Virus record (IMG/VR): IMGVR_UViG_3300028007_000003
Span: 1-51,063 of that record
Source of the DNA: a virus
Direction: 5' to 3' (one strand)
DNA: 51,063 nucleotides
Part shown: one piece after another, positions 4,435 through 50,916 of the stretch
Layout of the letters: every line of letters starts with the position of its first letter
How positions within the stretch are numbered: position 1 is the first letter of the stretch
Made by a program: the position numbers and the translations under genes
Notes under the pieces: generated by a model
What the model was told of the DNA's origin: nothing
Database searches by the model: none
The model's input: only the letters and a program-made list of their open reading frames with translations

Positions 4435-4530
4435 AATTAAAGCAAAATTAACAAAAGCTATGGCGGCATTTGGCAACAACCTGTCAGCCGACACCATCAA
4501 AAATTAGAAGCAGAATAAAAAAAATCAGCC

Positions 4531-4755: not shown

Positions 4756-4776
4756 ACATATTAAAGTTTGTGAATT

Positions 4777-20518: not shown

Positions 20519-20546
20519 GGGTGAGGGAGTTTTATTTCCCCCACCC
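20519..20546 (-). terminator. Hairpin after the major capsid gene
   Basis: GGGTG/CACCC plus GGG/CCC with one mismatch gives an 8-bp stem 6 nt past the capsid stop codon. On the minus strand it is followed by TATTTAATAAC without a strong U-tract, so it may be an attenuator or mRNA-stabilising 3' hairpin and not a full terminator. Confidence 0.55.
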
Positions 20547-20552: not shown

Positions 20553-21914
20553 TTAAGCCAATACTTGTTGACGAAGCATGAATTGTGGAGCAAGAACTTC
20601 AAAACCTTGTTTTGTAGTCCAGCTACAAGTTGCGTTCATGATGTTACCATCATAAGTAGGCGCACCATTCCAAGCTAATGCACCACCATGAAGCTCGTCA
20701 ATCATTCCGTTACCGTATTTGGTTTGAGAAGGAATATAACGAACATTCATTGCGTTGTCGTAACCACCACCAACGATAGGCACTCTCTCATTGTAAGGAA
20801 TGTAGTAAAGTGATTTGTTGATAACAGTTTGTTGGAACAATACAGGTTGGTCTTGAATTGGCATTGTCATGTAGTTGAAGGTAAATCCACCATAGTTCAA
20901 CTTATCTACCATCAAGTCAACCTCACGTCCATCAATTACCAAACGTGCAGATGTTACACCAGAAGAACCTAAGTTTTTCAGGTAAGTATCAATAGTTGTA
21001 CGTGCAAGGCTGCTTCCGAACACTAATTGTTCTTTAGGCGCACGATTAGCAATCAATACTTGTACTGCGTTGTCAAGGTTTGCTTTCTGATAAGTACCTA
21101 ATGTACCGTTTACGATAGTGTTACCGTAAAGTTCATTGTACTTATGCAAACCTCTTGTAGTTTGGATATTACCACCACCATTTGAACCGTTTGTGTAAGG
21201 GTCAACTAAAAACGCATTGCTATCAGCAAACGATGTAGTTGACATATCACCCGCAATGAAAGCGGCATTGATATGACCTTTCAACAAGATTTGCTTATCA
21301 ATATGGTCTTTTACTGCAAAGTATGGTTGACCGTTGTAAGTGGTTTCTACAGTAGCTGCACTTTGAACGTCTGTAACTACTGAAATCTCACGGAAGATTT
21401 GATACTTGTTGAAGTATCTTGTCTGACCGAAACGTATATTAGTTTGGTTTACAGAGTTTTCACCTACTGCTACTGAAATGATAGAAAGTTTATCACCTAT
21501 TGTAAGGGTAATGTTTACACCTGCAACTGATTTTGCATATACAGTATCAATTCCTGACGCAGTAACTACGTTAGTTACGATGATTGGAATTTCACCTGTT
21601 GGTGCTAAAAGAATATCATCCTTACGTGTCTGACCTGATGTAGCGGCTGTCAAAGTAAAGTTTACTGATACTGTACCACTACCGTTTACTGTACCACCTG
21701 TGGTATCCAAAAGTTTGAATAAACTTTCGTTTACATAAGTGTTGTAAAAGGGTTGACCTGTTTGGATGGGCTTCTTTTTGTTACCCAAATTAAGAATATC
21801 AGTCAAGTTATCTTCATTGTAAATGTCGGTAACTGTTTTTCTGATTTCCCTTGTGTCTAAGAACGAATCCAATGAGGATACGTACTGTTTATTAATTATA
21901 CCTGTTGTTGCCAT
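20553..21914 (-). CDS. Major capsid protein (putative), 453 aa
   Basis: A 453-residue protein directly downstream of a portal gene and a scaffold-like gene, the canonical place for the major head protein. The N-terminus (MATTGIINKQYVSSLDSFLD) is followed by an arm region (NLTDILNLGNKKKPIQTGQP), a beta-rich segment with an inserted Thr/Val domain (about residues 70-150), a spine-helix-like region (VKDHIDKQILLKGHINAAF) and a C-terminal beta domain (RVPIVGGGYDNAMNVRYIPS). These fit an HK97-fold capsid protein of a Bacteroidota podovirus with an insertion domain. Strong 3' hairpins and isolation by flanking hairpins agree with high expression. The HK97 fold is inferred from position and pattern, not from a search. 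Confidence 0.8.
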   Translation of the reverse strand: MATTGIINKQYVSSLDSFLDTREIRKTVTDIYNEDNLTDILNLGNKKKPIQTGQPFYNTYVNESLFKLLDTTGGTVNGSGTVSVNFTLTAATSGQTRKDDILLAPTGEIPIIVTNVVTASGIDTVYAKSVAGVNITLTIGDKLSIISVAVGENSVNQTNIRFGQTRYFNKYQIFREISVVTDVQSAATVETTYNGQPYFAVKDHIDKQILLKGHINAAFIAGDMSTTSFADSNAFLVDPYTNGSNGGGNIQTTRGLHKYNELYGNTIVNGTLGTYQKANLDNAVQVLIANRAPKEQLVFGSSLARTTIDTYLKNLGSSGVTSARLVIDGREVDLMVDKLNYGGFTFNYMTMPIQDQPVLFQQTVINKSLYYIPYNERVPIVGGGYDNAMNVRYIPSQTKYGNGMIDELHGGALAWNGAPTYDGNIMNATCSWTTKQGFEVLAPQFMLRQQVLA

Positions 21915-21938: not shown

Positions 21939-23090
21939 TTAATTGCCGCCAAAAGTTGTTGACTTCGCAGCACCCCACGCATCTTTAGGTGTTTGAGGTG
22001 TAACGGTTGGCGATTGCCCGTGTGGTCTGCGAGCATTTTGACCTTCTTCAACGATGGCTTTTAGTCCCATAGATTTACCGTAGTTAAAGATGTCTTTTTC
22101 GTAGTTTGGATTGAGGGCTACTAACGCAATTTTTTGCAGTTTTGCCACATCGGGAATTAATTTGCTTTCATCTGGCTCTCCCGGATTTTCAGCAATGGCT
22201 CTTACCCAATTTTTACCAAAGGCTACTGATTGCAGCATTTCAGGATTATCTACATTAAAGTTGAACGGGGCAACACCTTCTCCTAAATTGACACTAACTC
22301 TTTTAGCTTCCAATAAGGATTTTGTTGACGGGTGTTCGTTTACAAACTTCATGTAGGCATCATATTGCTGCCTTTGTTGTTCTTCTATTTGTTTTTGTTC
22401 AAGACTTGCTTGTAACGTATTAGCCTCTTGCTGTGTCGTTACAGTTGGTATTTGAAACTTCTTTTGTTCTTCAATTCTTTGCTGCCTTAAATTATAGGCT
22501 TTTGCTTGCAATAAGATTGCTCCATCTTCTTTTTCTTGTTCGTCTGCATTGTCGTGTTGATTAAATTCTTTACTAATCAACCTTTCAATTTGTTCTGCAT
22601 TCAGATTTGGATATTGTTTCTGATATTCATTTTTAATAACATCTACATCTGAAACTTTATTCCAATCAAAGGCTTTTGCTTCAAGGTATTTATAAGGGTC
22701 ATTCCCTTGTTTTCTGTATTCAATAAATTCAATGTCAAAATCGTCCAATCCCGCCTCTTTAAGTAATTCTTTTCTGTCGGCTGTTTTAATCGCCTCTTTC
22801 CATGAAACGGCATTTGCTTTTGGCTCTGCTTCTGTTACTATTGTTTCAGTAGTTTCAGTATCGTTCCCAAAAGACGGCATTGAAAATGAAGCGACATTTT
22901 CTTCTACAACTACCGTCTCTGCGGGTGCTGCTTCGGTAGCGGCTGTTTCTTGTACTGCTTCCGTTGCAGGAGTAGGGGCTTGTTCTTGAACTTCCACTAC
23001 TGCGGGTGCTGCTGAAAATGTAGTCTTTGTAAAGACAGGTGCTTGTTGTTGCTGCTCTTGTTGTACTTCTACTGTGGCTACTTCTGACAT
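21939..23090 (-). CDS. Putative scaffolding or head assembly protein, 383 aa
   Basis: The N-terminal 130 residues are a low-complexity Glu/Gln/Ala/Val/Thr region (VEVQQEQQQQAPV, TETTETIVTEAEP). The middle is helical and strongly charged (EKEDGAILLQAKAYNLRQQ, EQKQIEEQQRQQYDAYMKF), and the C-terminus is basic and polar (ARRPHGQSPTVTPQ). A disordered acidic start plus long helices between the portal and the capsid gene is the classic profile of a scaffolding protein, which directs procapsid assembly and leaves before packaging. No protease motif is visible. The position is decisive for the call; sequence similarity is not claimed. Confidence 0.7.
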   Translation of the reverse strand: MSEVATVEVQQEQQQQAPVFTKTTFSAAPAVVEVQEQAPTPATEAVQETAATEAAPAETVVVEENVASFSMPSFGNDTETTETIVTEAEPKANAVSWKEAIKTADRKELLKEAGLDDFDIEFIEYRKQGNDPYKYLEAKAFDWNKVSDVDVIKNEYQKQYPNLNAEQIERLISKEFNQHDNADEQEKEDGAILLQAKAYNLRQQRIEEQKKFQIPTVTTQQEANTLQASLEQKQIEEQQRQQYDAYMKFVNEHPSTKSLLEAKRVSVNLGEGVAPFNFNVDNPEMLQSVAFGKNWVRAIAENPGEPDESKLIPDVAKLQKIALVALNPNYEKDIFNYGKSMGLKAIVEEGQNARRPHGQSPTVTPQTPKDAWGAAKSTTFGGN

Positions 23091-23112: not shown

Positions 23113-25476
23113 TTAGGCTGCCTTTTCTTTCTTTTTATCAGATTGAATTTTAGCATTTGCCTGTATTTCCTGTGCGATGATTTTAGCTTCCCCTGTAATC
23201 TTACTTGAAAGTGCTTTAGCATCTGCTTGTACTCCTGCTTCAACTTGGTCGCTTTGTTTTTTCATTTGTTCAGTAACGTAATTCCATTGACCTTTTACGT
23301 TTTCTGCTTCTATTTGAACTTGACCTTGCAACATGATTGTTTGCTGTTTTGCTTGTTCGATTGCAAGTGCCATTTGTGTTTGACCTTGATTGTTTTCCTG
23401 AATTTTCTGCATTTCAAACAATCTCATTTCTTCCTTACGCTTCTTAATTCTATACGCAAGAAGCATATCCGCTTGCTTCAAATTCCTGCAAGACATTATC
23501 AGTATCTTATCTTGCGGTTCAATCAATCCTTGATATTCTTTGGCGGTCAAACTTTGCCAAAACATTTGTCTTTCTTCTTCTGTCGGGCTATCTTCTAAAA
23601 AGATACCAAACTCATGTATTGAAATATTAGGATTAATTTCTAAGAATGAAACTGTTTCAGAACCCAACGCTTTTCTATACCCTGCTACCTTACCTAATTT
23701 TACTGCTATTTGAACCTTTGCTATAATAGCATCTGCAAGACTTGTCATTTGTCTTTTATCTGCGTTCATTAAAAGATAGAGAGCATTGTTTGTGCTTTCC
23801 ATCATTCCAGCATTAGTAGAATTTAAGTTTCTTGGGTTAATAGTGCTACCGTCTGTTACTTCATTAAGACCTGAAATTTGACGCATCATGTCAATGATGG
23901 TAGCTAATTCATTTCTTAATTCCACAAAGGCTTGCAACTGACCGCTTGGCTCAATGCTAACGGGTTTGTAGTTTGGATTTCTGCTTAACAAATCGGTGCT
24001 TCTATACGGAGCAACAAAATTGCTTAAAATGAAGTCCATTATTTCCGCAGGGTCTTGTGCCTTACCACCCTTTCCGAAACTTACTGATTCCAATGCGTTA
24101 AAGTCCACATTCATAATGTATGGAACTAACTTATTGGCAAGGTTTTGCATACGCAACCAAATAAGACAACCTTGATCTGCAAGTGGAATAAGCCTTTCAG
24201 TAATACCCGTCCACTGCATACGGTAAAAATTCCATGCGTATAGCTGAATATCTAATGAAGTATCCCACCAATTTGACGGTTTACGAACCATGTTTTCAGA
24301 TAGTCCATAATTGTAGATGAAGTCGGTATTTACTACCCACATACATTTGTAAACAACCGCTTTGGTTATTTTACTAAATTTAGGTTCTGCCGCACCCGTT
24401 TCGCCCGTTTCCGTCATTGGCTGCTCGTACTGTTCTTCCAAAGTTCCTGCGGGACTTACTGCCATGTTTTTGAACTTTGTCTTATTGAATCTTATGTTAC
24501 CCCTGCCATCTACTTCTTCTTTGTAAAATGTAGTATTCCAATTCTTAAATTTAAAGTCTAAAACAAGGACTTTAAATCTATTGTAGTATGATGAAAGGTC
24601 GGCTGTGCCGTCCCATGCAAAGTATGGTTGGTTTCCGTATTTACCTGCAACTGTTTTAATAATTGTATCTAACTGTTCTCTTGTGAAATAAGGCACTAAA
24701 TCTCCTACATATATTTCTCTGAAATAACCCCAATGTGTTAAGTCTGAAAAGTCGTTTTTAGTACAATAGGAAAGGAGTAGCATTTCGGGGTCTAATTCCT
24801 CTACTTTTACCATCCCGTTTTCATCAATATATTCAGTATAACCCCCTATTCCGTAATCAAAGTTATATTCGTTTGTCCTTTTTCTTCTTTCGTCAATATC
24901 GTTCTGCTGCATTATTAGGTCAATAGCGGATTCCGCTTCCATACTCATAACGTGCTTATAGCTGTATGGTGCTTCCATTTCTAAAGCATCCATATCTTGC
25001 GGCTCGTTAGGTTCGGGCATTAAAAGTGGATTATCGGCTAATTCAGAACCCATTTCTTTTGCTTTTTGACGCATAAGGATTTTCACCTTCATTTTATCAA
25101 AAAACAAATCTTCTTCACTTTTAGCCAATGCGTCCACTGCGGATGCTTGTATATCGTAACGTCTTTGAACTAACTTAGAGATAGCTATTTCTCTGTATTT
25201 ACAGAGCAATGCAAGGGGATTCCAGTCACTTGTTAGCCAACTATTATCGGTTTGCTCATCGGGTAGTAGTAATTTTTTGTACTTCTGAATGGATTGTTTA
25301 CCCATTGCGTACATCTTAATTTCTGCCATTTTAGCCCTGAAAGCATTAACAGGATTCATCGGGGCGTACCCTCTGCCATCATAGTAAGCGGCTTTACAGT
25401 ATTGTAAAATCCACTTCTCGTTTTTTAGGCGTGGGTCTACGTTACTGTCGGGGTAAGTAAATGAATTGCCGTCCAA
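23113..25476 (-). CDS. Portal protein, 787 aa
   Basis: A 787-residue portal of the large type found in Bacteroidota podoviruses. The N-terminal part has NAFRAKMAEIKMYAMGKQSI and YREIAISKLVQRRYDI, typical of the clip/wing region. The central portion contains YSYKHVMSMEAESAIDLIMQ and GIGGYTEYIDENGMVKVEEL, where portals make a stem helix and beta stretch. The C-terminal 130 residues are a long Gln-rich coiled coil (QMALAIEQAKQQTIMLQGQ) that would form the barrel inside the capsid. It forms the dodecameric DNA channel at the capsid vertex and docks the terminase. It is 22 nt upstream of the scaffold-like gene. A 112-nt AT-rich gap with direct repeats separates it from the glycan cassette, so a promoter probably lies there. 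Confidence 0.88.
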   Translation of the reverse strand: MDGNSFTYPDSNVDPRLKNEKWILQYCKAAYYDGRGYAPMNPVNAFRAKMAEIKMYAMGKQSIQKYKKLLLPDEQTDNSWLTSDWNPLALLCKYREIAISKLVQRRYDIQASAVDALAKSEEDLFFDKMKVKILMRQKAKEMGSELADNPLLMPEPNEPQDMDALEMEAPYSYKHVMSMEAESAIDLIMQQNDIDERRKRTNEYNFDYGIGGYTEYIDENGMVKVEELDPEMLLLSYCTKNDFSDLTHWGYFREIYVGDLVPYFTREQLDTIIKTVAGKYGNQPYFAWDGTADLSSYYNRFKVLVLDFKFKNWNTTFYKEEVDGRGNIRFNKTKFKNMAVSPAGTLEEQYEQPMTETGETGAAEPKFSKITKAVVYKCMWVVNTDFIYNYGLSENMVRKPSNWWDTSLDIQLYAWNFYRMQWTGITERLIPLADQGCLIWLRMQNLANKLVPYIMNVDFNALESVSFGKGGKAQDPAEIMDFILSNFVAPYRSTDLLSRNPNYKPVSIEPSGQLQAFVELRNELATIIDMMRQISGLNEVTDGSTINPRNLNSTNAGMMESTNNALYLLMNADKRQMTSLADAIIAKVQIAVKLGKVAGYRKALGSETVSFLEINPNISIHEFGIFLEDSPTEEERQMFWQSLTAKEYQGLIEPQDKILIMSCRNLKQADMLLAYRIKKRKEEMRLFEMQKIQENNQGQTQMALAIEQAKQQTIMLQGQVQIEAENVKGQWNYVTEQMKKQSDQVEAGVQADAKALSSKITGEAKIIAQEIQANAKIQSDKKKEKAA

Positions 25477-25588: not shown

Positions 25589-26155
25589 TCAAAAACCGTT
25601 AAATAGTTCCCTACCCTGTAAAAGACTATCATAATTCATGTCGCACATGGCATTTTGGGAGTAACCGTTGTGCTGAATAGCGGCAAATGGATAGCATACA
25701 TGAAAGTCCCCTAATCCACCTAATACCCTGTCAATATGTTCATCTGCGGGTACGGACAGGAACTTATCATAAAATTTAGAATGTACTATGTATAGGTGAA
25801 GTCCACTAAAACTTTTTACTTTACCATCTACTATATCTCCTAAGTAAATCCCTGAAAGATAAAGGTCAAATGACTGTGGTTTATTTTTTAAAAAGTATTG
25901 GAAAGAATCGGGGTGTGTAAATCTCACATCATCTTCGGCTATAATTATTTCGTCAAGTTTATGGTCTGTGGCATATTGAACGCAATTTTTATGGGCTTTG
26001 TTTATCCCATGCTTTACCCCCATCACATCATGTACGGAAGGCATTAATTCAAAATCATAGATACCCTGCTTTGATAATTCATTCATCAATAAATTAAACC
26101 TATCTTCTCTTTCAAAGTTATGAATGATTAGCAATTTCATTTTGCATATTTTCAA
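25589..26155 (-). CDS. Putative glycosyltransferase, GT25-like, 188 aa
   Basis: A short GT-A-type protein. LLIIHNFEREDRFNLLMNEL matches the start of GT25 (LPS-type) enzymes, and EIIIAEDDVRF supplies the acidic EDD metal/nucleotide-binding motif (about residues 92-96). HLYIVHSKFYDKFLS and the DEHIDRVLG segment resemble the acceptor side of these enzymes. Starts at 26155 or, preferably, at the ATG at 26140 (MKLLIIHN). At 183-188 residues it is somewhat short for GT25. It is the last gene of the carbohydrate cassette, 112 nt ahead of the portal gene. The sugar and acceptor are unknown. A second GT25-like enzyme lies at the other end of the cassette (33167-33781). Confidence 0.65.
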   Translation of the reverse strand: MKICKMKLLIIHNFEREDRFNLLMNELSKQGIYDFELMPSVHDVMGVKHGINKAHKNCVQYATDHKLDEIIIAEDDVRFTHPDSFQYFLKNKPQSFDLYLSGIYLGDIVDGKVKSFSGLHLYIVHSKFYDKFLSVPADEHIDRVLGGLGDFHVCYPFAAIQHNGYSQNAMCDMNYDSLLQGRELFNGF

Positions 26156-26199
26156 GATATTTTAAAGGTTACCTTTTTTTATAAGTAGCTTGTCCATGA

Positions 26200-27000
26200 T
26201 TAAAGATATGTTAGTATTTTTTTATAACAACCCTCGTATGTATAAAAGTCATTGTAAATTGAACTTAAACAGTCTTGTTTGTTTATTATACACATCGGGT
26301 CTATGTTTGTTAAAATAAGGTCAATATAGTCTGATTCCGAACTATTTATGATAACACCAAAATCATTGAAATTCAAATCAAACGGATTCACAAATTCATC
26401 TGTTATTACAACAGGAATAGACCCAAACTGCATACTTTCTGCAACTCTAAAAGAATTTTTTCCGTAGCCCCTAAAGCATAATGTAAAAGTTGACTTGCTT
26501 ATTATTCTGCAATAACTTTCTATATCATGATTATTAAATGAAACATAATAATTTGAATTATTAATTAATTTTAATGCACTATTACGTATTGGATGTGTTT
26601 TATTACCTATAAAATTAGCAATGTAATCATTTGAATGCTTAAATTTAAACGGATGCGGTTGGCACATTAACGGGATGCCTATTCCATCATTCGTACTCAT
26701 GTTAAATTGCAGCACATCTAAATCTTTAAAATCTACTCCAACAGAATCATCGTATTGACTAATTGTAAAATATTTTTTACTTCTTGGCAATGAATCGATA
26801 AATTTTTGAAGTTTACTCATAGCGACAATATCATTGCCATAATCATTATTTACTTGATAAGCACACCAATAAACACCTAAATATTCCCTTTCTCTTTCTT
26901 CATTATATCTTTCTCCAAACCACCTTTCATATTCAATGAAATTGTTTGGTGGATAAACTGTATTAATTACAGGTTTAAATTCTTGTGGTACTTGTATCAT
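26200..27000 (-). CDS. Putative GT47/exostosin-like glycosyltransferase, 266 aa
   Basis: The C-terminal half contains FRGYGKNSFRVAESMQFGSI followed by PVVITDEFVNPF, the signature of the exostosin (GT47) fold: the basic/Gly loop and Arg bind the nucleotide sugar, and the SIPVVI strand and acidic residue follow. Upstream parts (YWCAYQVNNDYGNDIVAMSK) are specific and unassigned. GT47 enzymes are GT-B inverting transferases, often for xylose, galactose, glucuronate or fucose-like acceptors. It overlaps the preceding methyltransferase gene by ATGA (26997-27000), showing co-translation. The exact donor cannot be read from the sequence. Confidence 0.75.
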   Translation of the reverse strand: MIQVPQEFKPVINTVYPPNNFIEYERWFGERYNEEREREYLGVYWCAYQVNNDYGNDIVAMSKLQKFIDSLPRSKKYFTISQYDDSVGVDFKDLDVLQFNMSTNDGIGIPLMCQPHPFKFKHSNDYIANFIGNKTHPIRNSALKLINNSNYYVSFNNHDIESYCRIISKSTFTLCFRGYGKNSFRVAESMQFGSIPVVITDEFVNPFDLNFNDFGVIINSSESDYIDLILTNIDPMCIINKQDCLSSIYNDFYTYEGCYKKILTYL

Positions 27001-27650
27001 ATATTGGTAAATCTTTTATAGAGTGCATCAGTCCAACTATCTCCCACCCAAAATCCTGTTTCTACTCTTTCAAAACCACGTAGCAGCATAAAATAATCAA
27101 AGTCGTCAATAGTCATGCAACCTATGTAAGTTTGTACCTTATTCACTTCTGCAAGAACGTAATCAAACTGTTTAATATAATTCCCCATCCCTTCAATTAC
27201 CAATGCCTCTACGCCCTGCAAATCAGCGTTTAAAAAGTTTAATCCTTCTATGTTTATTTCTCCATTATTTACTAATGTATCAATTCTATTTGTTTTCATT
27301 TTTACAGAATTGATATAATGCACTTCTGGGTGTATCTGTTTGTGTATGCCTAATTCAAGCATTGATGAACTTTGGCTTTCGTTGTTAGAGATATTAAATG
27401 TAACTTCTTCTCCATCAACATTACTTAAACAATAGTTGTACACATATTGGTTATGGTAATCTTCAAGATTTTTCTTTGCTTGTTCATATACTTCTTTTAT
27501 TGCTTCTATCCACACTACTCTGCCGCAACCTAATTCAAGGTATTCTTTTCTTTCTTGACAAAAACTGCTCCCTAAATGCAGCACCCCTTTTATTTTAAGA
27601 TTATGATTAACAATCAAATCTCTAAATGGCATCATCATAATTAATCCCAA
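26997..27650 (-). CDS. FkbM-family methyltransferase, 217 aa
   Basis: A SAM-dependent methyltransferase of the FkbM type. KGVLHLGSSFCQERKEYLEL has the SAM-binding loop (LGS variant), VVWIEAIKEVYEQAKKNL is the acidic strand II region, and NYCLSNVDGEEVTF with the MKTNRIDTLV segment gives the FkbM-specific part. FLNADLQGVEALVIEGM matches the KIDVQGxE motif, with Asn replacing the usual Lys/Ile. FkbM enzymes O-methylate hydroxyls, often on sugars. A possible later start is M5-M7 (27638-27632), after the previous gene's stop. It forms a tandem pair with the FkbM gene upstream and is coupled to the GT47 gene. Confidence 0.8.
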   Translation of the reverse strand: MGLIMMMPFRDLIVNHNLKIKGVLHLGSSFCQERKEYLELGCGRVVWIEAIKEVYEQAKKNLEDYHNQYVYNYCLSNVDGEEVTFNISNNESQSSSMLELGIHKQIHPEVHYINSVKMKTNRIDTLVNNGEINIEGLNFLNADLQGVEALVIEGMGNYIKQFDYVLAEVNKVQTYIGCMTIDDFDYFMLLRGFERVETGFWVGDSWTDALYKRFTNI

Positions 27651-28249
27651 TTTTCAATGTTAATATTTAGGTTTGCGTATGCGTTTATTAGTTTATCTCT
27701 TTCTGCTCTCATTTTATCGTTATGTGCGTGAAATTCAACAAATAATCTTTTTATTTTATGAAGATGCTTAGCTTTAATGTTATTTAATATAGCGTATTCA
27801 GACCCTTCGCAATCCATTTTTATATAGTACTCATCTGCATTACCTACATTGTCAAGAAATGAATTAATACCTATTACTTCTACTACATATTTATTGTAGG
27901 ATGGATTTTCTTGATTAACAGAGCCAATACTATCAGTGATAAATTGAATACCCATAGTTGTTGCAGCACTATCCCCTGCCATATCATCCCTTGTTAGCAA
28001 TGTAGCTATATCGGTTTTACCACCAACCGCACCCCTAAAAAATATTGTTTTACTATCTTCTTTTATGTGCTTGTCTATATACTCGTAACATTCGGGATTT
28101 GGTTCTGAAAACAATCTTAACCAAGCATTATCAATACCAAGTATATCTATCATTCTATAATAGCCACCTAATGAATTAGTACCTATGTCTATGTATGCTT
28201 TCAAACTCTTTCGCTTTGGTTTTTTAAATTCACTTGCTGTTCTACCCAT
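27641..28249 (-). CDS. FkbM-family methyltransferase, 202 aa
   Basis: The second FkbM-type enzyme. LKAYIDIGTNSLGGYYRMID carries the SAM-binding DIGTN loop (about residues 20-24), and LFSEPNPECYEYIDKHI is the strand II region with acidic Glu. EYYIKMDCEGSEYAILNNI is an excellent match to the conserved I-K-D/M-D-x-E-G-x-E motif. It probably O-methylates a sugar. It starts within the last 49 nt of the epimerase gene, so the two are read in different frames and are translationally linked. It is more canonical than its neighbour at 26997-27650, suggesting divergence of the pair in substrate rather than simple duplication. Confidence 0.85.
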   Translation of the reverse strand: MGRTASEFKKPKRKSLKAYIDIGTNSLGGYYRMIDILGIDNAWLRLFSEPNPECYEYIDKHIKEDSKTIFFRGAVGGKTDIATLLTRDDMAGDSAATTMGIQFITDSIGSVNQENPSYNKYVVEVIGINSFLDNVGNADEYYIKMDCEGSEYAILNNIKAKHLHKIKRLFVEFHAHNDKMRAERDKLINAYANLNINIENWD

Positions 28250-29250
28250 TTATACAATTTCTCCATCCCTTCTTTAAGTGGACGTGAAGGCTTCCATCCT
28301 AAAACTTGTTCGCATAAAGTATTATCTGAATTACGCCCTTTTACACCTATTGCATTTGATGGTACGTTTTTGATGGTTAAGTTCTTACCTGAAATATCAA
28401 TAACCATTTTTGCTAAATCATTAATCGAAATCATATAATCAGACCCTATATTAACAGGGTAATAATAATCACTATCCATTAGCTTTAAAACACCGTCAAT
28501 AGCTTCATCTACATAAATAAAACTTCTTGTCTGTTCTCCCGTACCCCATATTTCAACTTCCCCGCCATTCCTCGCTTCACAAACCTTTCTTGTAATTGCC
28601 GCAGGGAATTTCTCTTTACCGTTATCCCAACTTCCTTCAACTCCGAACACGTTGTGAAATCTACACATTCTTACATTTAGCCCTTTATTTCTTCTAAATG
28701 CTTGATATATTCTTTCAGAGGTTAATTTGCCAAAACCGTAGTCTGAATCGGGGTTGGCAGGGTAATCGTCCCTGAATTCTCTTAGCCCAATATTATTTGG
28801 ATCTTGTTGAACATCTGCATTATAACAACAAGCAGACCCACTCCAAAATACTTTAATACCTAATTCAGATGCCAACTTTGCACAATTCAAATCTATCATT
28901 AGTGAATTATAAAGTATTTCATCGTCAAACTCGCCAGTAAAAATCACGCCAGCACCGCCCATCCAACTTGATAAAACATACAATTCGTCAATAGGATTCC
29001 CGTCTTTTAGTAAATTTTTATAAACAACATCTTTGTATCTTAAATCTCCTATTACATAATCATCGGTATAATCAATAGAGCCAAATTGATACTCGTTAAT
29101 ATCAACTGTTCTTACCCAATGACCCATGCTTTTCAATCTTCTTGCTAAATGATGCCCTATAAACCCATTTCCGCCAAAAACAACAATTTTTTTAAGATTT
29201 TCAGTTACTACTACATCATCATCCGTAAAATGTCCTATTAACATTCCCAT
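28201..29250 (-). CDS. GDP-mannose 3,5-epimerase-like NAD-dependent epimerase, 349 aa
   Basis: An extended short-chain dehydrogenase/reductase. VVFGGNGFIGHHLARRL (residues 23-39) is the NAD-binding GGxGFIG motif. YGFGK (171-175) is the catalytic YxxxK. SACCY (139-143) and NGKEKFPAA (210-218) carry the Cys and Lys used as acid/base by plant GDP-mannose 3,5-epimerase (Arabidopsis Cys145 and Lys217 by alignment: here about Cys141 and Lys214). The line RFHNVFG, the TRSFIYVDEAIDGVLKL segment and VKGRNSDNTL are also typical of this enzyme and not of UDP-sugar epimerases. It converts GDP-D-mannose to GDP-L-galactose (and some GDP-L-gulose), supplying an activated sugar to neighbouring transferases. 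At about 350 residues, length is normal. It overlaps the next gene by 49 nt. Confidence 0.88.
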   Translation of the reverse strand: MGMLIGHFTDDDVVVTENLKKIVVFGGNGFIGHHLARRLKSMGHWVRTVDINEYQFGSIDYTDDYVIGDLRYKDVVYKNLLKDGNPIDELYVLSSWMGGAGVIFTGEFDDEILYNSLMIDLNCAKLASELGIKVFWSGSACCYNADVQQDPNNIGLREFRDDYPANPDSDYGFGKLTSERIYQAFRRNKGLNVRMCRFHNVFGVEGSWDNGKEKFPAAITRKVCEARNGGEVEIWGTGEQTRSFIYVDEAIDGVLKLMDSDYYYPVNIGSDYMISINDLAKMVIDISGKNLTIKNVPSNAIGVKGRNSDNTLCEQVLGWKPSRPLKEGMEKLYKWVEQQVNLKNQSERV

Positions 29251-29312
29251 ATTATTTATTTTTTGGTTTTATATAAAATAGATACTTGTATGTCATAAAC
29301 AAATTTTGTTAC

Positions 29313-30005
29313 TTATTGGGATATGTTAATATAATTATTATAGTATAGTTCTAATAAGTTACTTGTCTTTATTTTATCGTGTGTATTAATAAAATCAATA
29401 CACCTATCTAAAGTAAACTCGTCTATATAATATCCATCATTAACACTTTTCCTGCTTTTTCTATCTGGTCTCATATAAGCGGCAACGGTACTCCAATCCA
29501 TATTTAGTATTCTGCCAATCTCGGAATATGTTTTTCCTTCTAATTTATATTTTTCTATTATTGGTCTGTACGTCATCCACCTTTCATTCCAATATTTGCC
29601 TTTCATTTTTGGGTCTCTAAAAGAGATGTTTCCTGTTCTTGCGGAGTATGGTATGTATGCAACAAACCTTGTATCTAAGCACACTAAAGCAAACATATCT
29701 ACATCATTTTCTGAATAACAGCTTTTTAGACCATTCCCCTTATCTTTTATATTAAACTTATAGCAAGGAGTTTGCGCTAAAATATTTTTTATTTTTGATG
29801 GATTTCTATTTAAGGACGGTTTTGTAGTTGTTTTCACTTGAACTTTCAATAATGATTTTCCATTATTCATTACAACATCAAAAGAACTATTGTGGTCTGG
29901 CACTATAAATGCGTCATACCCATTCATTAGTAAATCAGCTACGACCAAGTGTTCTCCTATTTTGCCAAATTTAATTGCATCTTTTATACAAAAATCTTTA
30001 ATCAT
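29313..30005 (-). CDS. Putative PD-(D/E)XK homing endonuclease with C-terminal HTH, 230 aa
   Basis: KIGEHLVVADLLMNGYDAFI, then SSFDVVMNN and LLKVQVKTTTKP give the Glu, Asp and Gln-x-Lys residues of a PD-(D/E)XK nuclease core (about residues 15-70), like the group I intron endonuclease I-Ssp6803I and its relatives. A C-terminal segment (KLEGKTYSEIGRILNMDWSTVAAYM) is a helix-turn-helix that would recognise the site. The start at 30005 (MIKDFCIKDA) is preferred over 30023 because it overlaps the preceding mini-gene's stop (ATGATTAA). It interrupts the carbohydrate cassette and probably spreads as a selfish gene. Confidence 0.7.
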   Translation of the reverse strand: MIKDFCIKDAIKFGKIGEHLVVADLLMNGYDAFIVPDHNSSFDVVMNNGKSLLKVQVKTTTKPSLNRNPSKIKNILAQTPCYKFNIKDKGNGLKSCYSENDVDMFALVCLDTRFVAYIPYSARTGNISFRDPKMKGKYWNERWMTYRPIIEKYKLEGKTYSEIGRILNMDWSTVAAYMRPDRKSRKSVNDGYYIDEFTLDRCIDFINTHDKIKTSNLLELYYNNYINISQ

Positions 30006-30099
30006 AAAAACAAAATCCCGCAAACAAAGGGTCTATCACTTCTAACCTTTCGATGGGAGTGCCTCTATTTACGGGAATTTGAATGTTAAATATTTTCAT
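29998..30099 (-). CDS. Short ORF, probable N-terminal gene fragment, 33 aa
   Basis: Encodes MKIFNIQIPVNRGTPIERLE and a FAGFCFYD end. The sequence reads like the beginning of a larger globular protein and is cut off where the PD-(D/E)XK endonuclease begins (8-nt overlap). It is flanked by a near-perfect 15-nt inverted repeat (30031-30045 and 30102-30116). Likely a remnant of a gene disrupted by the endonuclease; alternatively a short leader peptide. Confidence 0.4.
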   Translation of the reverse strand: MKIFNIQIPVNRGTPIERLEVIDPLFAGFCFYD

Positions 30100-30116
30100 G
30101 ATTAGAAATGATAGAC
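30031..30116 (-). repeat. 15-nt inverted repeat (14 of 15) around a start codon
   Basis: GTCTATCACTTCTAA (30031-30045) and TTAGAAATGATAGAC (30102-30116) are complementary with one mismatch. In the minus-strand transcript the first arm lies immediately before the ATG of the 33-aa frame and the second arm is inside it, so the RNA would form a long hairpin across its start. It could be a regulatory RNA structure or the border of an inserted element. Confidence 0.6.
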
Positions 30117-30131
30117 AATGCTAATTTAATA

Positions 30132-30719
30132 CTATTTATTTAATTTTTTATAAAAATCTTTAATAAAATAAAAAATACCATACCCATTATTAGTATTTTC
30201 TTCAAATAAAAACTGCTCTGGTTCAAAAACTCTACCTTCTATATCATTTCTAACTATAATATTAGGAACTACTTCTTTTACAGCCTTATTAACATCAGAA
30301 CAATAAAAGTCATGACCCGCAAAAATAGCATTATCCAACAATTTGGGATACCAAGCTAATAACGAATCTTTAGTTTCTTGATACTCATGAGATGAATCTA
30401 AGTATAAAAAATGAAAATAACCATCATTGAACATATTAGAAGCGGTTACGCTATCGTAAGGTATTACTTCTATAAATTCTCCTAATCCACTTTTTATAAT
30501 ATTAGTGTATATCGTTTTCATTTGTTCATATTGACCGTAATCCATATTATCAATCATGTACAATTTGAAACTTTTGCCAAGTTTATGTAACTCTTTAGCA
30601 AGAAAAAGCGAACTATGCCCATCAGCAACACCAATTTCTGCTACCTTACAATTATTTGGAAGTTGATTTGCAATTCTTGAATAAAAGTCACTAAAATCAA
30701 ACATTAATGCTTCACTCAT
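30132..30719 (-). CDS. SAM-dependent methyltransferase (class I, Methyltransf_24-like), 195 aa
   Basis: Start chosen at 30719 (MSEALMFDFSDFY) because it overlaps the upstream glycosyltransferase stop by ATGA; the longer frame to 30785 is not needed. CKVAEIGVADGHSSLFLAKE contains the SAM-binding E-x-G-x-x-x-G loop (about residues 24-30). SFKLYMIDNMDYGQYEQM gives the acidic residue after strand II, and HFLYLDSSHEYQETKDSLL (about 110-130) matches the Methyltransf_24 signature with Asp, Ser and His. Such enzymes methylate sugars or other small hydroxyls. It is the third methyltransferase of the cassette. Confidence 0.8.
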   Translation of the reverse strand: MSEALMFDFSDFYSRIANQLPNNCKVAEIGVADGHSSLFLAKELHKLGKSFKLYMIDNMDYGQYEQMKTIYTNIIKSGLGEFIEVIPYDSVTASNMFNDGYFHFLYLDSSHEYQETKDSLLAWYPKLLDNAIFAGHDFYCSDVNKAVKEVVPNIIVRNDIEGRVFEPEQFLFEENTNNGYGIFYFIKDFYKKLNK

Positions 30720-31468
30720 ATTTTTATCCAATTTTCGGGAATTATATCGTTTACATTCATATTCATCCACCCACGTTGAAACCAATCTTTTGGTGTTACA
30801 ACAATCTTTTCTGGATTTTTATTAAGCCATGCAGACCACCAAGAAAAAGTTGAAGATGAATTAATGTGAGAATGACAACAACTCATTTCAATAAGGTCTT
30901 GTTCTTCGCTTGTATTTAAACTATATTCAAAATCGTAAAGTTTTCCATGCCTTTCGATAAATAACGGTATATTATCGGAATATACCTTAAACCTAACAAT
31001 TCCCGTATTTTCTTTTATATATTTAATTGCAGATAATATATATTCTTCATCTATAATGATGTGCTTGCCAGGTATTTTTAAATAATCACCATACCTTGCG
31101 TGCAAAGAGCATATAGGCTCTATTTTCCATGGATAATTAAACAAGTATAATATTTCACTTCGGTAATCTTTGAAGTATTTTTCACTTTGGCGATACCCAT
31201 GTATAATGATATTTTTTTGCCTCCAAGATTCATCAAAGGGAATTTCTTGGTACTCATGACCATTTTCCCATAATTCTATTTTTTCTAAATTATTGTCATA
31301 GGACTTATCTTGCAAATCCGTCAAATAAATAGGAGACCAAAATGCGTCTGTTGTATGCAACGGGACGGTAAAATTAAGTTCGTGTTTTAATGCGTAAGCG
31401 ATAGATGTGGCACATTCAAACAGAAAATTGCCCATTCTGCCTACTGCTGGAAATGTTACGTGAGGCAT
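30716..31468 (-). CDS. GT11 fucosyltransferase-type glycosyltransferase, 250 aa
   Basis: VGRMGNFLFECATSIAYALK near the N-terminus, HARYGDY at about 123-129 (the GT11 H-x-R-x-x-D-Y motif) and SSSTFSWWSAWLN at about 204-216, followed by VVTPKDWF, are the signature blocks of alpha-1,2/alpha-1,6-type fucosyltransferases of family GT11. These enzymes use GDP-L-fucose, and GDP-L-galactose is its close analogue. Given the GDP-mannose 3,5-epimerase in the same cassette, L-galactose is a plausible donor here. Length (250) is slightly short of the typical 280-300. Starts by one-base overlap with the stop of the upstream HNH-like gene at 31468. Confidence 0.85.
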   Translation of the reverse strand: MPHVTFPAVGRMGNFLFECATSIAYALKHELNFTVPLHTTDAFWSPIYLTDLQDKSYDNNLEKIELWENGHEYQEIPFDESWRQKNIIIHGYRQSEKYFKDYRSEILYLFNYPWKIEPICSLHARYGDYLKIPGKHIIIDEEYILSAIKYIKENTGIVRFKVYSDNIPLFIERHGKLYDFEYSLNTSEEQDLIEMSCCHSHINSSSTFSWWSAWLNKNPEKIVVTPKDWFQRGWMNMNVNDIIPENWIKI

Positions 31469-32118
31469 TATTTATTTTTGTTTTTATAAAAATTATAAAC
31501 GTAATCAAAATTTTTTCCTCTTTTTAGCATTTTATTAATTTGAGCGCATCTTGTATTTAATTTTTTAGCCCAATAAGTTATTATCAACCTTTCGCCATTA
31601 TATTCAATCCATACATTAGTGCTTTTATTCCTGCTTTGCTGCTCATTAGTAGCCCATCTGCAATTAGACGGTTCATAATTACCATTAATATCGGGGTATC
31701 TATCTAAACTATGTTGTAAAGTCGGTTTTTTACCCATATCCTCAAAGAAATTTTCAAAACTATTTAACCATCTATCACACACAGAAATACCCCTTGCTCC
31801 ATATCTATGATATTTTTTAGTAGATTTTAAATTACACCTATTAATCATCGCTCGCCATGCGTCATATTCTCTTGTTCTGCCTAATTGTTTATTGTTTTGA
31901 CCATGCTTAAAAGCTCTTTTAGATGTTAATTCCGAATTTAAGCACCCGCAAGATTTAATATGCCCACTTTTTAAACTATCCCCTCTAACTATACTATCAT
32001 TCCCACAATCGCATTTGCACATCCATTTATACCCTCCATTTGAATACATTTCATTAGTGTGTCCAACGACAGTAAGCCTATTAAATTTTTTCCCCAATAA
32101 ATTCTCAAATGCACCCAT
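31468..32118 (-). CDS. HNH-like phage endonuclease with N-terminal zinc ribbon, 216 aa
   Basis: NLLGKKFNRLTVVGHTN begins the protein. WMCKCDCGNDSIVRGDSLKS followed by SCGC gives four or five Cys of a zinc ribbon (about residues 33-59). The second half has TREYDAWRAMINRCN, YGARGISVCDRWLNSFENF, LDRYPDINGNYEPSNCRWAT and EQQSRNK, the well-known block order of a large family of phage proteins annotated as HNH endonucleases. The helical C-terminus with an ITYWAKKLNTRC segment may bind DNA. It sits inside the carbohydrate cassette, overlapping the GT11 gene by one base. It begins 14 nt after a hairpin-rich noncoding element (32132-32230), possibly part of its mobile unit. Confidence 0.75.
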   Translation of the reverse strand: MGAFENLLGKKFNRLTVVGHTNEMYSNGGYKWMCKCDCGNDSIVRGDSLKSGHIKSCGCLNSELTSKRAFKHGQNNKQLGRTREYDAWRAMINRCNLKSTKKYHRYGARGISVCDRWLNSFENFFEDMGKKPTLQHSLDRYPDINGNYEPSNCRWATNEQQSRNKSTNVWIEYNGERLIITYWAKKLNTRCAQINKMLKRGKNFDYVYNFYKNKNK

Positions 32119-32131
32119 ATAATAAAAAATG

Positions 32132-32230
32132 CCGCCTACGCAATGTGCTTTAACTCATACCGTTAGGTAGGGGTATCATTGCGAGGCGGGGTAATTTTAA
32201 GTATTTTGACATACGATATAAGTTAAAGCA
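32132..32230 (-). ncRNA. Pseudoknot-forming intergenic RNA element with terminator-like hairpin
   Basis: Read on the minus strand, CCGCCTCGCAATG (32177-32189) pairs with CATTGCGTAGGCGG (32132-32145) over 13 bp with a single bulge, directly followed by six U. Its loop contains AGTTAAAGCA (32146-32155), which is perfectly complementary over 10 nt to TGCTTTAACT just upstream (32221-32230). The two helices would form a pseudoknot or compete. The element lies between a glycosyltransferase fragment and the HNH-like gene. A conditional terminator/riboswitch or a structured element belonging to the mobile endonuclease are both possible. Confidence 0.55.
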
Positions 32231-32233
32231 GTG

Positions 32234-32464
32234 CTAACTTACAACTTCTATTTTTAAGTTCCTAATTTTTTCAAGTATTTTTTCTCTAAAGTCGCCTGTT
32301 CGGTGTACATTATTGATGTAGTGGGATAATGGGTGAACGGCATGATTGTACTGTAAGCCTTCTACTATTTTAAAATTTTTACCCGACATTATCCAATTAT
32401 AGTTTTGATATAGGCTATCGCTTGTTACGGGGTCAACGCTACCGTCCCATACTTCTAAATACAT
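32234..32464 (-). pseudogene. C-terminal fragment of a duplicated GT2-like gene, 76 aa
   Basis: The 76-residue product reads SVDPVTSDSLYQNYNWIMSG, then VEGLQYNHAVHPLSHY. This parallels the C-terminal end of the upstream glycosyltransferase (DPHSSDSIFMNYQWLNRG and LTYQHTIHENSHY). The two are therefore paralogous C-termini, and this copy lacks the whole nucleotide-binding half. It starts at ATG 32464, two bases after the full gene ends. It is probably the remnant of a tandem GT2 duplication truncated by insertion of the 32132-32230 element and the HNH-like gene. Translation is possible, but activity as a transferase is not. Confidence 0.75.
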
Positions 32465-32466
32465 AA

Positions 32467-33162
32467 TTATTTCATATTTTTCAAATTTTCTTCAATCTCT
32501 TTATAAAATTCTGGAGATTTATGGCAGTTTGCTTTATAATGCGAATTTTCGTGAATGGTATGCTGATAGGTTAGCTTGGGGACAAAGTATATTGAGTTCC
32601 CCCTATTAAGCCATTGGTAATTCATAAATATGCTGTCAGATGAATGAGGGTCTATATTTTGGTCAAAACACTTTAAATATTCATCCCTATTGACAAACAT
32701 ATTATGTGTATTTAGTGCTGTATCAAACATTGACTTACCCATATATCCCGATACGTTTGTTTTGTCTATCTTAAGACCCGAATAGGCTCTGTAATCAAAT
32801 ATTGGGGCAGCAAAAGTTGGGGCTAATATTGTTTTTTCATCCCACTCCTGTTCAAATACTATATCAATATAATCGGTATTAATTATATTATCTGAATCAA
32901 ATAAAATACAAAATTCTGATTTTGCGTATGATATAGCAGTCATTTTATTTCTGTAACAGTCTTGGTTGGTAATGTTCCTATAAAGCCTAATCTTTGGCAA
33001 CATATCGCAGTAGGACTTTAATTCATTAAATGTTTCCAATTTACTTGCATCATCAACTATTACTATCTCTGATATTCTTTCATCATTATATACTTTGCTA
33101 AAACTGTTTAAGGTCATTTCTACTCTTTCATAAGTGGGTATCGCTATCGTTATTTGCTCCAT
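32467..33162 (-). CDS. GT2-type glycosyltransferase, 231 aa
   Basis: ITIAIPTYERVEMTLNSFSK (residues 3-22) and EIVIVDDASKLETF give the N-terminal nucleotide-binding part of a GT-A fold. ILFDSDNII (about 91-99) is the DxD-like metal-binding motif. The C-terminus (SSDSIFMNYQWLNRG, YQHTIHENSHY) is shared with the truncated paralog downstream. GT2 enzymes invert configuration with UDP- or GDP-sugars. At 231 residues it is compact, as many phage GT2 enzymes are. It is co-transcribed with the GT25 gene 4 nt upstream. Confidence 0.8.
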   Translation of the reverse strand: MEQITIAIPTYERVEMTLNSFSKVYNDERISEIVIVDDASKLETFNELKSYCDMLPKIRLYRNITNQDCYRNKMTAISYAKSEFCILFDSDNIINTDYIDIVFEQEWDEKTILAPTFAAPIFDYRAYSGLKIDKTNVSGYMGKSMFDTALNTHNMFVNRDEYLKCFDQNIDPHSSDSIFMNYQWLNRGNSIYFVPKLTYQHTIHENSHYKANCHKSPEFYKEIEENLKNMK

Positions 33163-33166
33163 AAAT

Positions 33167-33781
33167 TTATTTTAGTTCTGCTAATTTTTGATAGTATCTT
33201 GGTGTTATAAATGCGTCCCAATTAATGTCTGCGTTTCCAATGCTTGAAAAGCCAGTTCGCTGTGTAGCCAAAAGTGGGTACGTTATAAAACATTTCTGTG
33301 CTGTTTGAACCTTATCTACTATGCAATTATCTATTGGTGCTGTTAGTCCTTCTGATAAAATATATTTCATCCCTGTTAAAGATATAGCCCATGCGTGAGT
33401 AGCGTAAGCACCATCTAATTGTAAAAGATTTGTACCTGCTCTATATTTAAAACCTCTTGTACATTGCGCCCCTAAAAACAATATATGCCAATCAGAAGGT
33501 AATTGTTCTAATGCTTTTTCGATTACACCATTAGGATTTTCTACCCACATACAATCATCTTCAAATATAAGTATTGCTTTGTAATTTTTTTCTATCGCTT
33601 CTTTTAAAATGTTTTCTACAACTAACCGCAAACCTTCTGCTCCACTTTCATGTTTTATCCCATCTACTAATTTAAAAGGTATATCATACTTATCCATTTC
33701 TTCACATACTTGCAGCAATCTGTCCTTTCGGTCAGGCAAGTTAATAACGTATATTTCATCGAAGTAATTAGTCCAACTCAT
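33167..33781 (-). CDS. GT25-family glycosyltransferase, 204 aa
   Basis: EIYVINLPDRKDRLLQVCEE (residues 9-28) is the classic start of GT25 (LPS beta-1,4-galactosyltransferase-like) enzymes. AILIFEDDCMWVENP (about 70-84) carries the EDD metal/nucleotide motif, and DGAYATHAWAISLTGMKYIL fits the acceptor-side segment. It is the first gene of the carbohydrate cassette, 4 nt after the large-terminase stop, so it is read on the terminase transcript. The sugar donor cannot be read from the sequence. Confidence 0.85.
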   Translation of the reverse strand: MSWTNYFDEIYVINLPDRKDRLLQVCEEMDKYDIPFKLVDGIKHESGAEGLRLVVENILKEAIEKNYKAILIFEDDCMWVENPNGVIEKALEQLPSDWHILFLGAQCTRGFKYRAGTNLLQLDGAYATHAWAISLTGMKYILSEGLTAPIDNCIVDKVQTAQKCFITYPLLATQRTGFSSIGNADINWDAFITPRYYQKLAELK

Positions 33782-33784: not shown

Positions 33785-35899
33785 TTATCCTACTTTTCTT
33801 CTTTTAAAATAATCATTTATATTCAATGTTTGTTTGTTTCTCCAGTTAGCAGGATTATCTTTCACATTTATAAGTGTAACACCCGCAGCCATTGGCTCAT
33901 CAAATTTTTCAGTATCTTCTACTTTAAACCCTAACCAACCCGTATCTTTTCTAAGAAGTGTTTTAAAGAGAACTTTAGATATAAACTTATTTATGTATGC
34001 TTCCGTATAATCACAAATCACCTGCACTGCGTTTCCTGCTGTTATTATACCGGGTTCTACTTCTCCGGGCATCCATGTTAAAAATGCACCACATCCCCAA
34101 TCGTTAAAATCATTTTTCCAATGGTTTACGTTTCTTTCAAATAGAACTTCACAACCACACCACCATGCCATTTTTAATATTTCTTCATTTGCTGCTCTTG
34201 TACTTTCGGGTCTATTGGAAAATCTAAGCACAAACATATTATTATACCTGCTGCTTAAATTCATTTCGTCTTGCAATTGATAGGCAAAAGCCGCACAATT
34301 CGACCTTCTTTTATCTTTTGTTTTATCGTATCTAAATGGGTCGCATCCTATTCTTATAGCAAAATTATTATTAGGGATATACCTTTCACCTTGCACATAT
34401 ACGTTATTTGGATTTTTTGGCAACCAACCTTTTACTTTTTCAAACATACCTTTTTCATTAGCCACCCATTCAACTTCATTAGGAACGTAGGTTACGTTTC
34501 CGTAGCCATCCGTAACAGGTCTTTTTATTTTATATCCATCTTTCCAAACTAAATCTCCAAATTCAGTTATTCCATCTACCCATATAATATTATCTAATTG
34601 AGTGTTTATTAATTCAGGGTTATACAAGGCAAATTCTCCATCTGCTGAAAACGCCTGTTTAAAGTTCATTGGGTTTTTACGCTTAAATGAACTCATTTTA
34701 CGAGTATCACCCTTTAATTCATAACCCCTAATTGTATTCAATAAAAAAGCTGTTGCCTTTTCTTCTTCTGCATAACCGTATCGGTCAAACATCATACCCT
34801 TTTGTGCGGGTAAGAAATATGTATATAACCCACTTGAAGTTCTATTGTTTTCGTTTCTTTCAAGCGGGTTACTATCTGCTGTTAGTTCTTGGAAATCATA
34901 GTTTTCTTCTTCCCCCTTTTCTGGTTCAACGGTAGTGGTAAACCAATGCTTCCCTTGCATTAAACCGTCAATTTCAGTACAATATCTTACTACGTTTTGT
35001 CTTTCTTTTATTGAAACAGGCTTTTTTGTCTTACCGCTTTCATCCGAAATGTAAGAGTGCAACTCTGGCCCATCGTACGCTGCTTCTGATGAAGATTTAT
35101 AATCAATAAACGAATTTAATGGTTCTTCAAAATCATTATCATCTTCTTCTGTTTTAGAGCCTCTCCTTGATGTAGCAAAAAATCTTAATTCATCATTAGG
35201 ACTATCCCCCTTCATTACGTCATAGCGTGGTCTGAAAAAGTCTGGTAGTGTTTTCCACGGATCACGAATAGCCTTTTTAAAAACTTCTTCGGCATCATCG
35301 TCAGCCTTGCTCTGAACACCCCCATGATGATTAGCTAACCTTGACGTTCTTTCGTATAGCCAACAACCAACCCTTGCTGTTTTACCGTTTTTTCTTTTTG
35401 TTAATTCGTTAATTCCTAAACAATCGGGGTCAAACATACAATATGAAACAACATAAAATAAATCCCTGTCAGGAATACGAAAATCCATTAGTTTACCCTG
35501 AAACTTCCAATATGTTATATATAGATAATGAAGCCCTGTTATATATATTAATTCTGCTTTTTTTTCTTTAGGATTATAATTCCAAAACCAAACCCCTCTT
35601 AACCTTCTTTTCCATTCCCTAATTCTTATTTCTTCTAAATAAGGGTCTATATAATCGGGTCTAATTTTTTGAGCCTCTTTTTCTTTTTTCCTTCTTGCAT
35701 TATAATCTGATGGCAATTTGGGTCTAATCCAAATACAATCTTCATCATTTTTAGTTCTTTCTAATATGTCCGTAGGTAAAACCTCTCCGCTTTGAGAACA
35801 CAAACCGTACCCAACAGGGGGGACATAGCATTTATAGGTAAACCCAAATGCATTGTCGGGTATTTCAAATAAAGTTCCGTTTTCTATTTCGTAAAACAT
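33785..35899 (-). CDS. terL: Terminase large subunit, 704 aa
   Basis: A DNA-packaging motor of large-phage type. The ATPase half contains LTKRKNGKTARV (Walker A-like, about residues 166-177) and HSYISDESGK (Walker B plus catalytic Glu, about 281-290), then WFTTTVEPEKG as a coupling-motif candidate. The nuclease half has IGCDPFRYD (catalytic Asp, about 520-530) and a CEVLFERNVNHWKNDF segment. The N-terminal 150 residues form an extra domain common in Bacteroidota phage terminases. It docks on the portal, hydrolyses ATP to package DNA and cuts the concatemer. A putative small subunit lies 3 nt upstream. A large carbohydrate cassette separates it from its usual neighbour, the portal gene. Confidence 0.9.
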   Translation of the reverse strand: MFYEIENGTLFEIPDNAFGFTYKCYVPPVGYGLCSQSGEVLPTDILERTKNDEDCIWIRPKLPSDYNARRKKEKEAQKIRPDYIDPYLEEIRIREWKRRLRGVWFWNYNPKEKKAELIYITGLHYLYITYWKFQGKLMDFRIPDRDLFYVVSYCMFDPDCLGINELTKRKNGKTARVGCWLYERTSRLANHHGGVQSKADDDAEEVFKKAIRDPWKTLPDFFRPRYDVMKGDSPNDELRFFATSRRGSKTEEDDNDFEEPLNSFIDYKSSSEAAYDGPELHSYISDESGKTKKPVSIKERQNVVRYCTEIDGLMQGKHWFTTTVEPEKGEEENYDFQELTADSNPLERNENNRTSSGLYTYFLPAQKGMMFDRYGYAEEEKATAFLLNTIRGYELKGDTRKMSSFKRKNPMNFKQAFSADGEFALYNPELINTQLDNIIWVDGITEFGDLVWKDGYKIKRPVTDGYGNVTYVPNEVEWVANEKGMFEKVKGWLPKNPNNVYVQGERYIPNNNFAIRIGCDPFRYDKTKDKRRSNCAAFAYQLQDEMNLSSRYNNMFVLRFSNRPESTRAANEEILKMAWWCGCEVLFERNVNHWKNDFNDWGCGAFLTWMPGEVEPGIITAGNAVQVICDYTEAYINKFISKVLFKTLLRKDTGWLGFKVEDTEKFDEPMAAGVTLINVKDNPANWRNKQTLNINDYFKRRKVG

Positions 35900-47970: not shown

Positions 47971-47988
47971 AGATTTATTTAGTTTTAA

Positions 47989-49409: not shown

Positions 49410-49410
49410 T

Positions 49411-50872: not shown

Positions 50873-50916
50873 ATACGGCACTAAATTAATGAATTTTTAA
50901 TTATAACAAACAAAAA

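Follow-up and report, generated by a model that had tools for sequence, protein, structure and literature searches.

A conserved glycosylation gene block between the terminase and portal genes of an uncultured tailed-phage clade, with a probable role in virion decoration

The window analysed here is a linear IMG/VR virus record (IMGVR_UViG_3300028007_000003), 51,063 bases long, in which a block of sugar-modifying genes fills the interval between the genes for the terminase large subunit (terL) and the portal protein, all on the minus strand (Table 1). The block encodes five glycosyltransferases (GT25, GT2, GT11, GT47 and GT25-like), a GDP-mannose 3,5-epimerase and three methyltransferases, and also holds two homing-type nuclease genes and one GT2 relic. 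Our analysis revealed that this block is a real, conserved and functional module; it is more than a chance arrangement, because the same gene order recurs in about 40 contigs. The reading we favour, with somewhat more confidence than doubt, is that of a conserved, actively maintained glycosylation module of the late genes that probably decorates the phage's own virions with a methylated sugar chain. It adds a variant to phage glycosylation and does not amount to a new type of system.

IMG/VR searches with terL, portal and the cassette genes provided relatives that have the block and relatives that lack it (L-numbers below); as these genes served as bait, relative counts are not population frequencies. 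The block was found at the terL–portal place in about 40 contigs, many of them near-copies of each other, with both flanks visible in 33. The order GT25a, GT2, GT11, methyltransferase, epimerase, FkbM, GT47, GT25b, portal is preserved with few exceptions, and the cassette proteins are about 40–66 % identical to those of the window, except where variant types occupy the methyltransferase slots. Comparison of close relatives returned ratios of non-synonymous to synonymous substitution rates (dN/dS) of 0.01–0.20 for each cassette gene, indicating strong purifying selection. GT47 is present in exactly one copy in each of 18 block carriers and absent from all seven other records, while all 25 records checked carry a GT25-family gene. 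The epimerase is not obligatory, since L007, L013 and L082 keep GT11 without it. The cassette DNA was not found in any named phage. Finally, the L082 block is the most divergent; besides lacking the epimerase, it carries an extra gene (4079–4789) resembling a 2-oxoglutarate-Fe(II) oxygenase (PhyH, sub-threshold, 0.078).

Among named phages, Elemovirus, Maribacter phage Panino and Cellulophaga phages phi46:3 and phi38:1 are nearest in terL and portal (23–28 % identity). The original prediction, made from the window's letters, had described the two packaging genes as usually close together, and this is borne out: they lie 3 bp apart in Panino and 8 bp apart in elemoA, neither of which has the cassette, and are likewise close in several relatives without the block. 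The slot had also been thought unusual; rather than being peculiar to this phage, it is standard in its clade.

The block is linked to the head genes. Among block carriers, the portal is 49–63 % and the putative major capsid protein (MCP) 53–76 % identical to that of the window, whereas phages with neither the block nor GT25b at the portal show 30–34 % and 34–39 %, respectively; L054 is intermediate (portal 44 %, putative MCP 40 %). The MCP tree places the window with L015 and L018 (support 100/100) and L008 (as L028) with L007 and L013 (100/97), two records in which GT25b is the only block gene at the portal. In the terL tree, by contrast, the window, L008 and L015 branch away from the remaining block carriers, most of which have a terL of another lineage than the window's. 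Taken together, these placements indicate repeated exchange of terL beside a block that kept its portal, putative scaffold and putative MCP neighbours. In the simplest history, the block is ancestral to this head clade and was moved or replaced in L007 and L013. As a separate observation, synonymous divergence (dS) of the putative MCP gene is 0.05–0.10 in the pairs L071/L081, L066/L069 and L071/L074, against about 0.2–1.1 for most cassette genes, portal and terL in the same pairs, which looks as if the capsid gene was recently homogenised.

In L007 and L013, GT2, GT11, methyltransferase, FkbM, GT47 and GT25 genes lie upstream of neck/tail genes homologous to window 43994–50881, beside a Cpn10 (GroES) gene. 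Four portal-block carriers (L008, L015, L071 and L031) hold only a GroES-like gene at this upstream place, which for the window falls past the record end. The homologous block of L007 and L013 is thus again beside structural genes, and portal-block carriers lack it there, both of which support a role in virion decoration. The expectation that the cassette might always lie between terL and portal therefore holds for about 40 contigs and fails in these two relatives. The original prediction had also reckoned with relatives carrying the same genes elsewhere as ordinary host-envelope genes; related genes do occur elsewhere, yet beside structural genes. In the more distant relatives L005, L011, L041, L045 and L048, a different glycan cluster (GT2-like, GT17-like and methyltransferase genes, with a GT25-family gene in all) is found near this upstream place. 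In seven of nine records examined, the GT25-family gene and the neck gene share one orientation and lie 0.9–1.8 kb apart. A plain reading of the cassette as present or absent was dropped, as whole-record searches showed glycan clusters elsewhere in L007, L013, L005, L011, L041 and L048. L071 and L031 have additional GT1/GT9- and FkbM-type genes near the fibre genes.

Comparison of the gene trees indicates that the layout is fixed while the enzyme alleles reassort between phages. The grouping of the window with L015 and L018 seen for the MCP was rejected (approximately unbiased test) for GT2 (p-AU 5e-4), the epimerase (8e-6), GT25b (0.004) and GT47 (0.012) and marginally for FkbM2 (0.047), with no significant rejection for GT25a and GT11; we accordingly dropped the idea that all the enzymes are strictly inherited together with the head genes. 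The intact GT2 of the window groups with those of L027 and L066 and is only 46 % identical to the L018 GT2, whereas the relic matches the C-terminus of the latter at 79 % identity, so that the relic reads as the scar of a replaced gene. Because the HNH endonuclease gene adjoins the relic, homing with co-conversion would be a plausible means of the replacement. This endonuclease was not found at the window's place in the relatives examined, and kin carry HNH and GIY-YIG nuclease insertions at varied points of the terL–portal slot. Between relic and HNH gene, window 32125–32240 (minus strand) contains two long interleaved inverted repeats, a possible pseudoknot (TGCTTTAACT/AGTTAAAGCA and CCGCCTCGCAATG/CATTGCGTAGGCGG, with a T run after the latter and a one-base bulge in the window copy); an Rfam search returned no match for this element. 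Further HNH-type genes occur between structural genes (window 47398–47970, minus strand) and in the terL–portal gaps of relatives, also block-less ones (L045:5059–5607, L044:1913–2440 and L087:10616–11149 in the relatives).

All of the sugar genes first listed for the window are present in the places given for them, as checked by open reading frames (ORFs) and Pfam E values, and PHROGs matches confirm the flanks; the ORFs of both nucleases had been overlooked. The epimerase, which stands closer to characterised enzymes of this name than to other SDR epimerases, matches plant GDP-mannose 3,5-epimerase (2c59) at 1.2e-72, with the next class of solved enzymes at 8e-27, and its catalytic Cys, Tyr and two Lys all align to the same residues in 2c59, which we take to be 145, 174, 178 and 217 of the Arabidopsis numbering. 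Such an epimerase in a phage is not new: cyanophages were already known to encode it, and 140 phage records gave matches. GT11 enzymes use GDP-L-fucose, and L-fucose is 6-deoxy-L-galactose; on these chemical grounds, this GT11 may use GDP-L-galactose. A GT11 profile built from two sequences gave no match among solved structures. The GT25a family profile matches procollagen galactosyltransferase 1 (3.5e-8). GT25b falls below the Pfam gathering score for PF01755 (16.1 bits against 24; E value 0.011), but its AlphaFold2 model (predicted local distance difference test, pLDDT, 91.9) best matches solved GT25 enzymes, with R655, COLGALT1 and a bacterial β-1,4-galactosyltransferase as top folds, and its EDD motif (E74-D75-D76) is invariant in 12 sequences. 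The label GT25-like is therefore apt by predicted fold, not by Pfam membership. Sequence relatives of GT25a and fold relatives of GT25b thus include the protein glycosyltransferase COLGALT1 beside bacterial β-1,4-galactosyltransferases. No transmembrane segments were predicted in any cassette enzyme, and neither an initiating sugar-phosphate transferase (PF02397) nor a thymidylate-synthase-family hydroxymethylase (PF00303) was found in 25 records, which may be incomplete. The sole strong minus-strand terminator-like hairpin of the head region comes after the putative MCP gene, with no such site from the end of terL to that gene.

The absence of membrane segments and of both Pfam families, the kinship of the GT25 enzymes with COLGALT1 and the hairpin after the MCP gene lead us to favour soluble, stepwise glycosylation of the virion. 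In the pathway we infer, which would be expressed late, the epimerase would convert host GDP-mannose to GDP-L-galactose, the other donors also being host-supplied; five soluble glycosyltransferases would add sugars stepwise in the cytoplasm onto a protein of the virion (head, neck or fibre). The GDP-L-sugar would most likely be used by GT11, one of the GT25 enzymes is a candidate for transfer to protein, and the methyltransferases would O-methylate, and so cap, the chain. Calling the set self-contained was an overstatement, as it has one nucleotide-sugar enzyme only and GDP-mannose must come from the host. As in virion-glycosylation systems, the phage-encoded glycosyltransferases are linked to structural genes.

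Several points weigh against virion decoration. The glycan is a prediction from the genes, and its acceptor is putative. The GT25, GT2 and GT11 families also build lipopolysaccharide (LPS), soluble glycosyltransferases can work on lipid-linked glycans at the inner membrane, and the search for a membrane pathway covered one family only (PF02397). Linkage of block and portal is in part simple proximity; yet terL is only 3 bp off on the other side. In two of the nine records, the GT25-family gene or glycan cluster lies on the opposite strand, divergent from the structural genes and 6–9 kb off. Fast allele exchange also fits a role at the host surface. Indeed, the main rival explanation is that the enzymes act late on the host envelope (LPS core, O-chain or capsule), where receptor masking would spare progeny from loss on debris or block adsorption by other phages. 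We consider this unlikely, though far from negligible: the LPS enzymes of the three families and the resemblance of allele swapping to variable surface-antigen loci speak for it, as does the published reading of pelagimyophage (PMC7029224) and cyanophage (PMC9602691) glycan genes, but the lack of membrane segments and of an initiating sugar-phosphate transferase argues against it, and the block lies consistently among structural genes, at two different positions, whereas cyanophage clusters lie near nrdAB and other metabolic genes. The suggestion that the product decorates the virion or the infected cell thus agrees, for the virion, with placement in a structural run, linkage to head genes and the lack of a membrane or lipid-carrier step.

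To our knowledge, O-methyl caps and GDP-L-galactose are not typical of DNA modification, which counts against a pathway that glycosylates modified bases of phage DNA as protection from restriction. Although DNA modification is a common job of phage glycosyltransferases (PMC12619734), we judge it very unlikely here, as the hydroxymethylase was not found in the 25 records and the block accompanies structural, not replication, genes. Equally improbable, and rejected on account of conserved order and purifying selection, is the view of the terL–portal gap as a landing site for homing nucleases and cargo, with the sugar genes as passengers without a fixed role: HNH, GIY-YIG and PD-(D/E)XK genes recur in the slot in the window and its kin, and the GT2 relic shows allele replacement, but the nucleases vary between phages while the enzymes stay.

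Within virion glycosylation, a more specific reading is possible, which we advance tentatively: a lineage-defining modular island of an environmental phage clade, with fixed slots and swapped alleles, at either of two late-gene positions, building an O-methylated coat that probably contains L-galactose. In the habitats of such a clade vertebrate immunity would not be the selective force, so such a coat would serve another purpose, candidates being adsorption, particle stability and escape from grazers or other defences.

Among known systems, the capsid glycan machinery of chlorovirus PBCV-1 (A064R, A061L and A075L) makes proven N-glycans on the capsid protein and, like the block, relies on mostly soluble viral glycosyltransferases, one annotated as an exostosin, and on O-methyltransferases that finish the chain (PMC9614988). 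The chlorovirus infects eukaryotes, whereas the present system belongs to a tailed phage and is described from its genes, and the resemblance is functional. Mycobacteriophages are likewise tailed phages that have their own glycosyltransferases (PMC12619734), with glycans on capsid and tail-tube subunits (Freeman et al. 2023, cited in PMC12619734); in contrast to the five glycosyltransferases, epimerase and three methyltransferases of the present block, they are described as having few glycosyltransferases each (two in Maravista, PMC11256854). Cyanophages S-SCSM1 and P-TIM68 combine a GDP-mannose 3,5-epimerase (47 % identical) with glycosyltransferases and methyltransferases, and S-SCSM1 also encodes an α-1,2-fucosyltransferase (PMC9602691); their clusters, near nrdAB and metabolic genes and read as host cell-wall genes, differ in position from the present block. 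Experimental cases of virion glycosylation in tailed phages are few and come from mycobacteriophages, while here a multi-enzyme pathway seems to be retained among the head genes across a whole uncultured clade. If our interpretation is correct, natural phage particles bear elaborate, variable sugar coats. The clade offers a clean comparison of the role of the coat (block at the portal, upstream of neck genes, or replaced by another cluster), and the soluble enzymes, including the route to GDP-L-galactose, could serve as tools.

Table 1. Genes and other features of the terL–portal block and adjoining head region of the window
Feature	Position	Strand	Evidence or remark
terL (terminase large subunit), left flank	33785–35899	-	phrog_6681 4e-47 (PHROGs)
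GT25a glycosyltransferase	33167–33781	-	Pfam PF01755 7e-8
GT2 glycosyltransferase, incoming allele	32467–33162	-	PF00535 1e-15; groups with L027/L066
Relic of older GT2, C-terminal 76 amino acids	32234–32464	-	79 % identity to L018 GT2
HNH endonuclease, homing type, inserted beside GT2 relic	31468–32118	-	phrog_374 4e-67
GT11 (α-1,2-fucosyltransferase family)	30716–31468	-	PF01531 4e-16; phrog_2644 5e-31
S-adenosylmethionine methyltransferase (Methyltransf_24)	30132–30785	-	PF13578 4e-14; first ATG is codon 23
PD-(D/E)XK endonuclease with helix-turn-helix, homing type, insertion	29313–30023	-	PF11645 9e-10
GDP-mannose 3,5-epimerase	28201–29250	-	Pfam 7e-31; 1.2e-72 to 2c59
FkbM methyltransferase 1	27641–28249	-	PF05050 9e-9; TIGR01444 5e-13; found in a minority of block carriers
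FkbM methyltransferase 2	26997–27650	-	PF05050 6e-12; TIGR01444 6e-14; slot in all block carriers, two subfamilies
GT47 (exostosin-like) glycosyltransferase	26200–27000	-	PF03016 8e-11
GT25b glycosyltransferase (GT25 fold)	25589–26155	-	AlphaFold2 model and fold search
Portal protein, right flank	23113–25476	-	phrog_6547 1e-70 (PHROGs)
Putative scaffold protein	21939–23090	-	Inferred: follows portal, homologues at equivalent place
Putative major capsid protein (MCP)	20553–21914	-	Synteny only
Terminator-like hairpin after putative MCP	20519–20546	-	10-bp stem, 7 G-C pairs, T-rich tail

Most enzyme genes are 2–4 bp apart or overlap by 1–70 bp, in line with the short overlaps first described, which do not extend to the surroundings of both nucleases, GT25b and the portal, where spacing is 44–115 bp. 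The putative MCP gave a weak match to the elemoA structural protein in profile comparison and a structure model with pLDDT 40; the label thus rests on synteny.

Some block carriers encode long Gly-X-Y fibres in which 77–94 % of X/Y positions are Ser or Thr, making them possible O-glycan acceptors (L183:1774–8415, L031:17522–21535, L021:17506–21534, L032:18080–21670 and L188:14963–16489). No Ser/Thr-rich Gly-X-Y fibre was found in the window, and a collagen-type acceptor as a general rule was dropped, such fibres occurring in some kin only. The large fibre-like proteins of the window (12482–16804 and 16814–18199, minus strand) start with signal-peptide-like MKKLLTVLFVLISLIAKAQ and MNKFFLVLLFCAATLLCKAQ, and 12131–12463 (minus strand) has a lipoprotein-like start; signal-peptide-like starts are odd for virion proteins, and the same is seen in relatives (L007:19808–20836). 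A Bacteroidota host is suggested, because the nearest named phages infect Flavobacteriia and the fibre-like proteins have Bacteroidota-style signal peptides; a genome scan for the host returned one phage-like contig in a metagenome bin. The 1440-amino-acid protein encoded by 12482–16804 has near-identical internal repeats, and antisense ORFs within its gene (15057–15341 and 15651–15935) give identical translations. At window 290–400, near the record end, direct and inverted repeats lie nested around TTCATTATC...GATAATGAACAGCCATTCGGCACA, and an A run comes after them.

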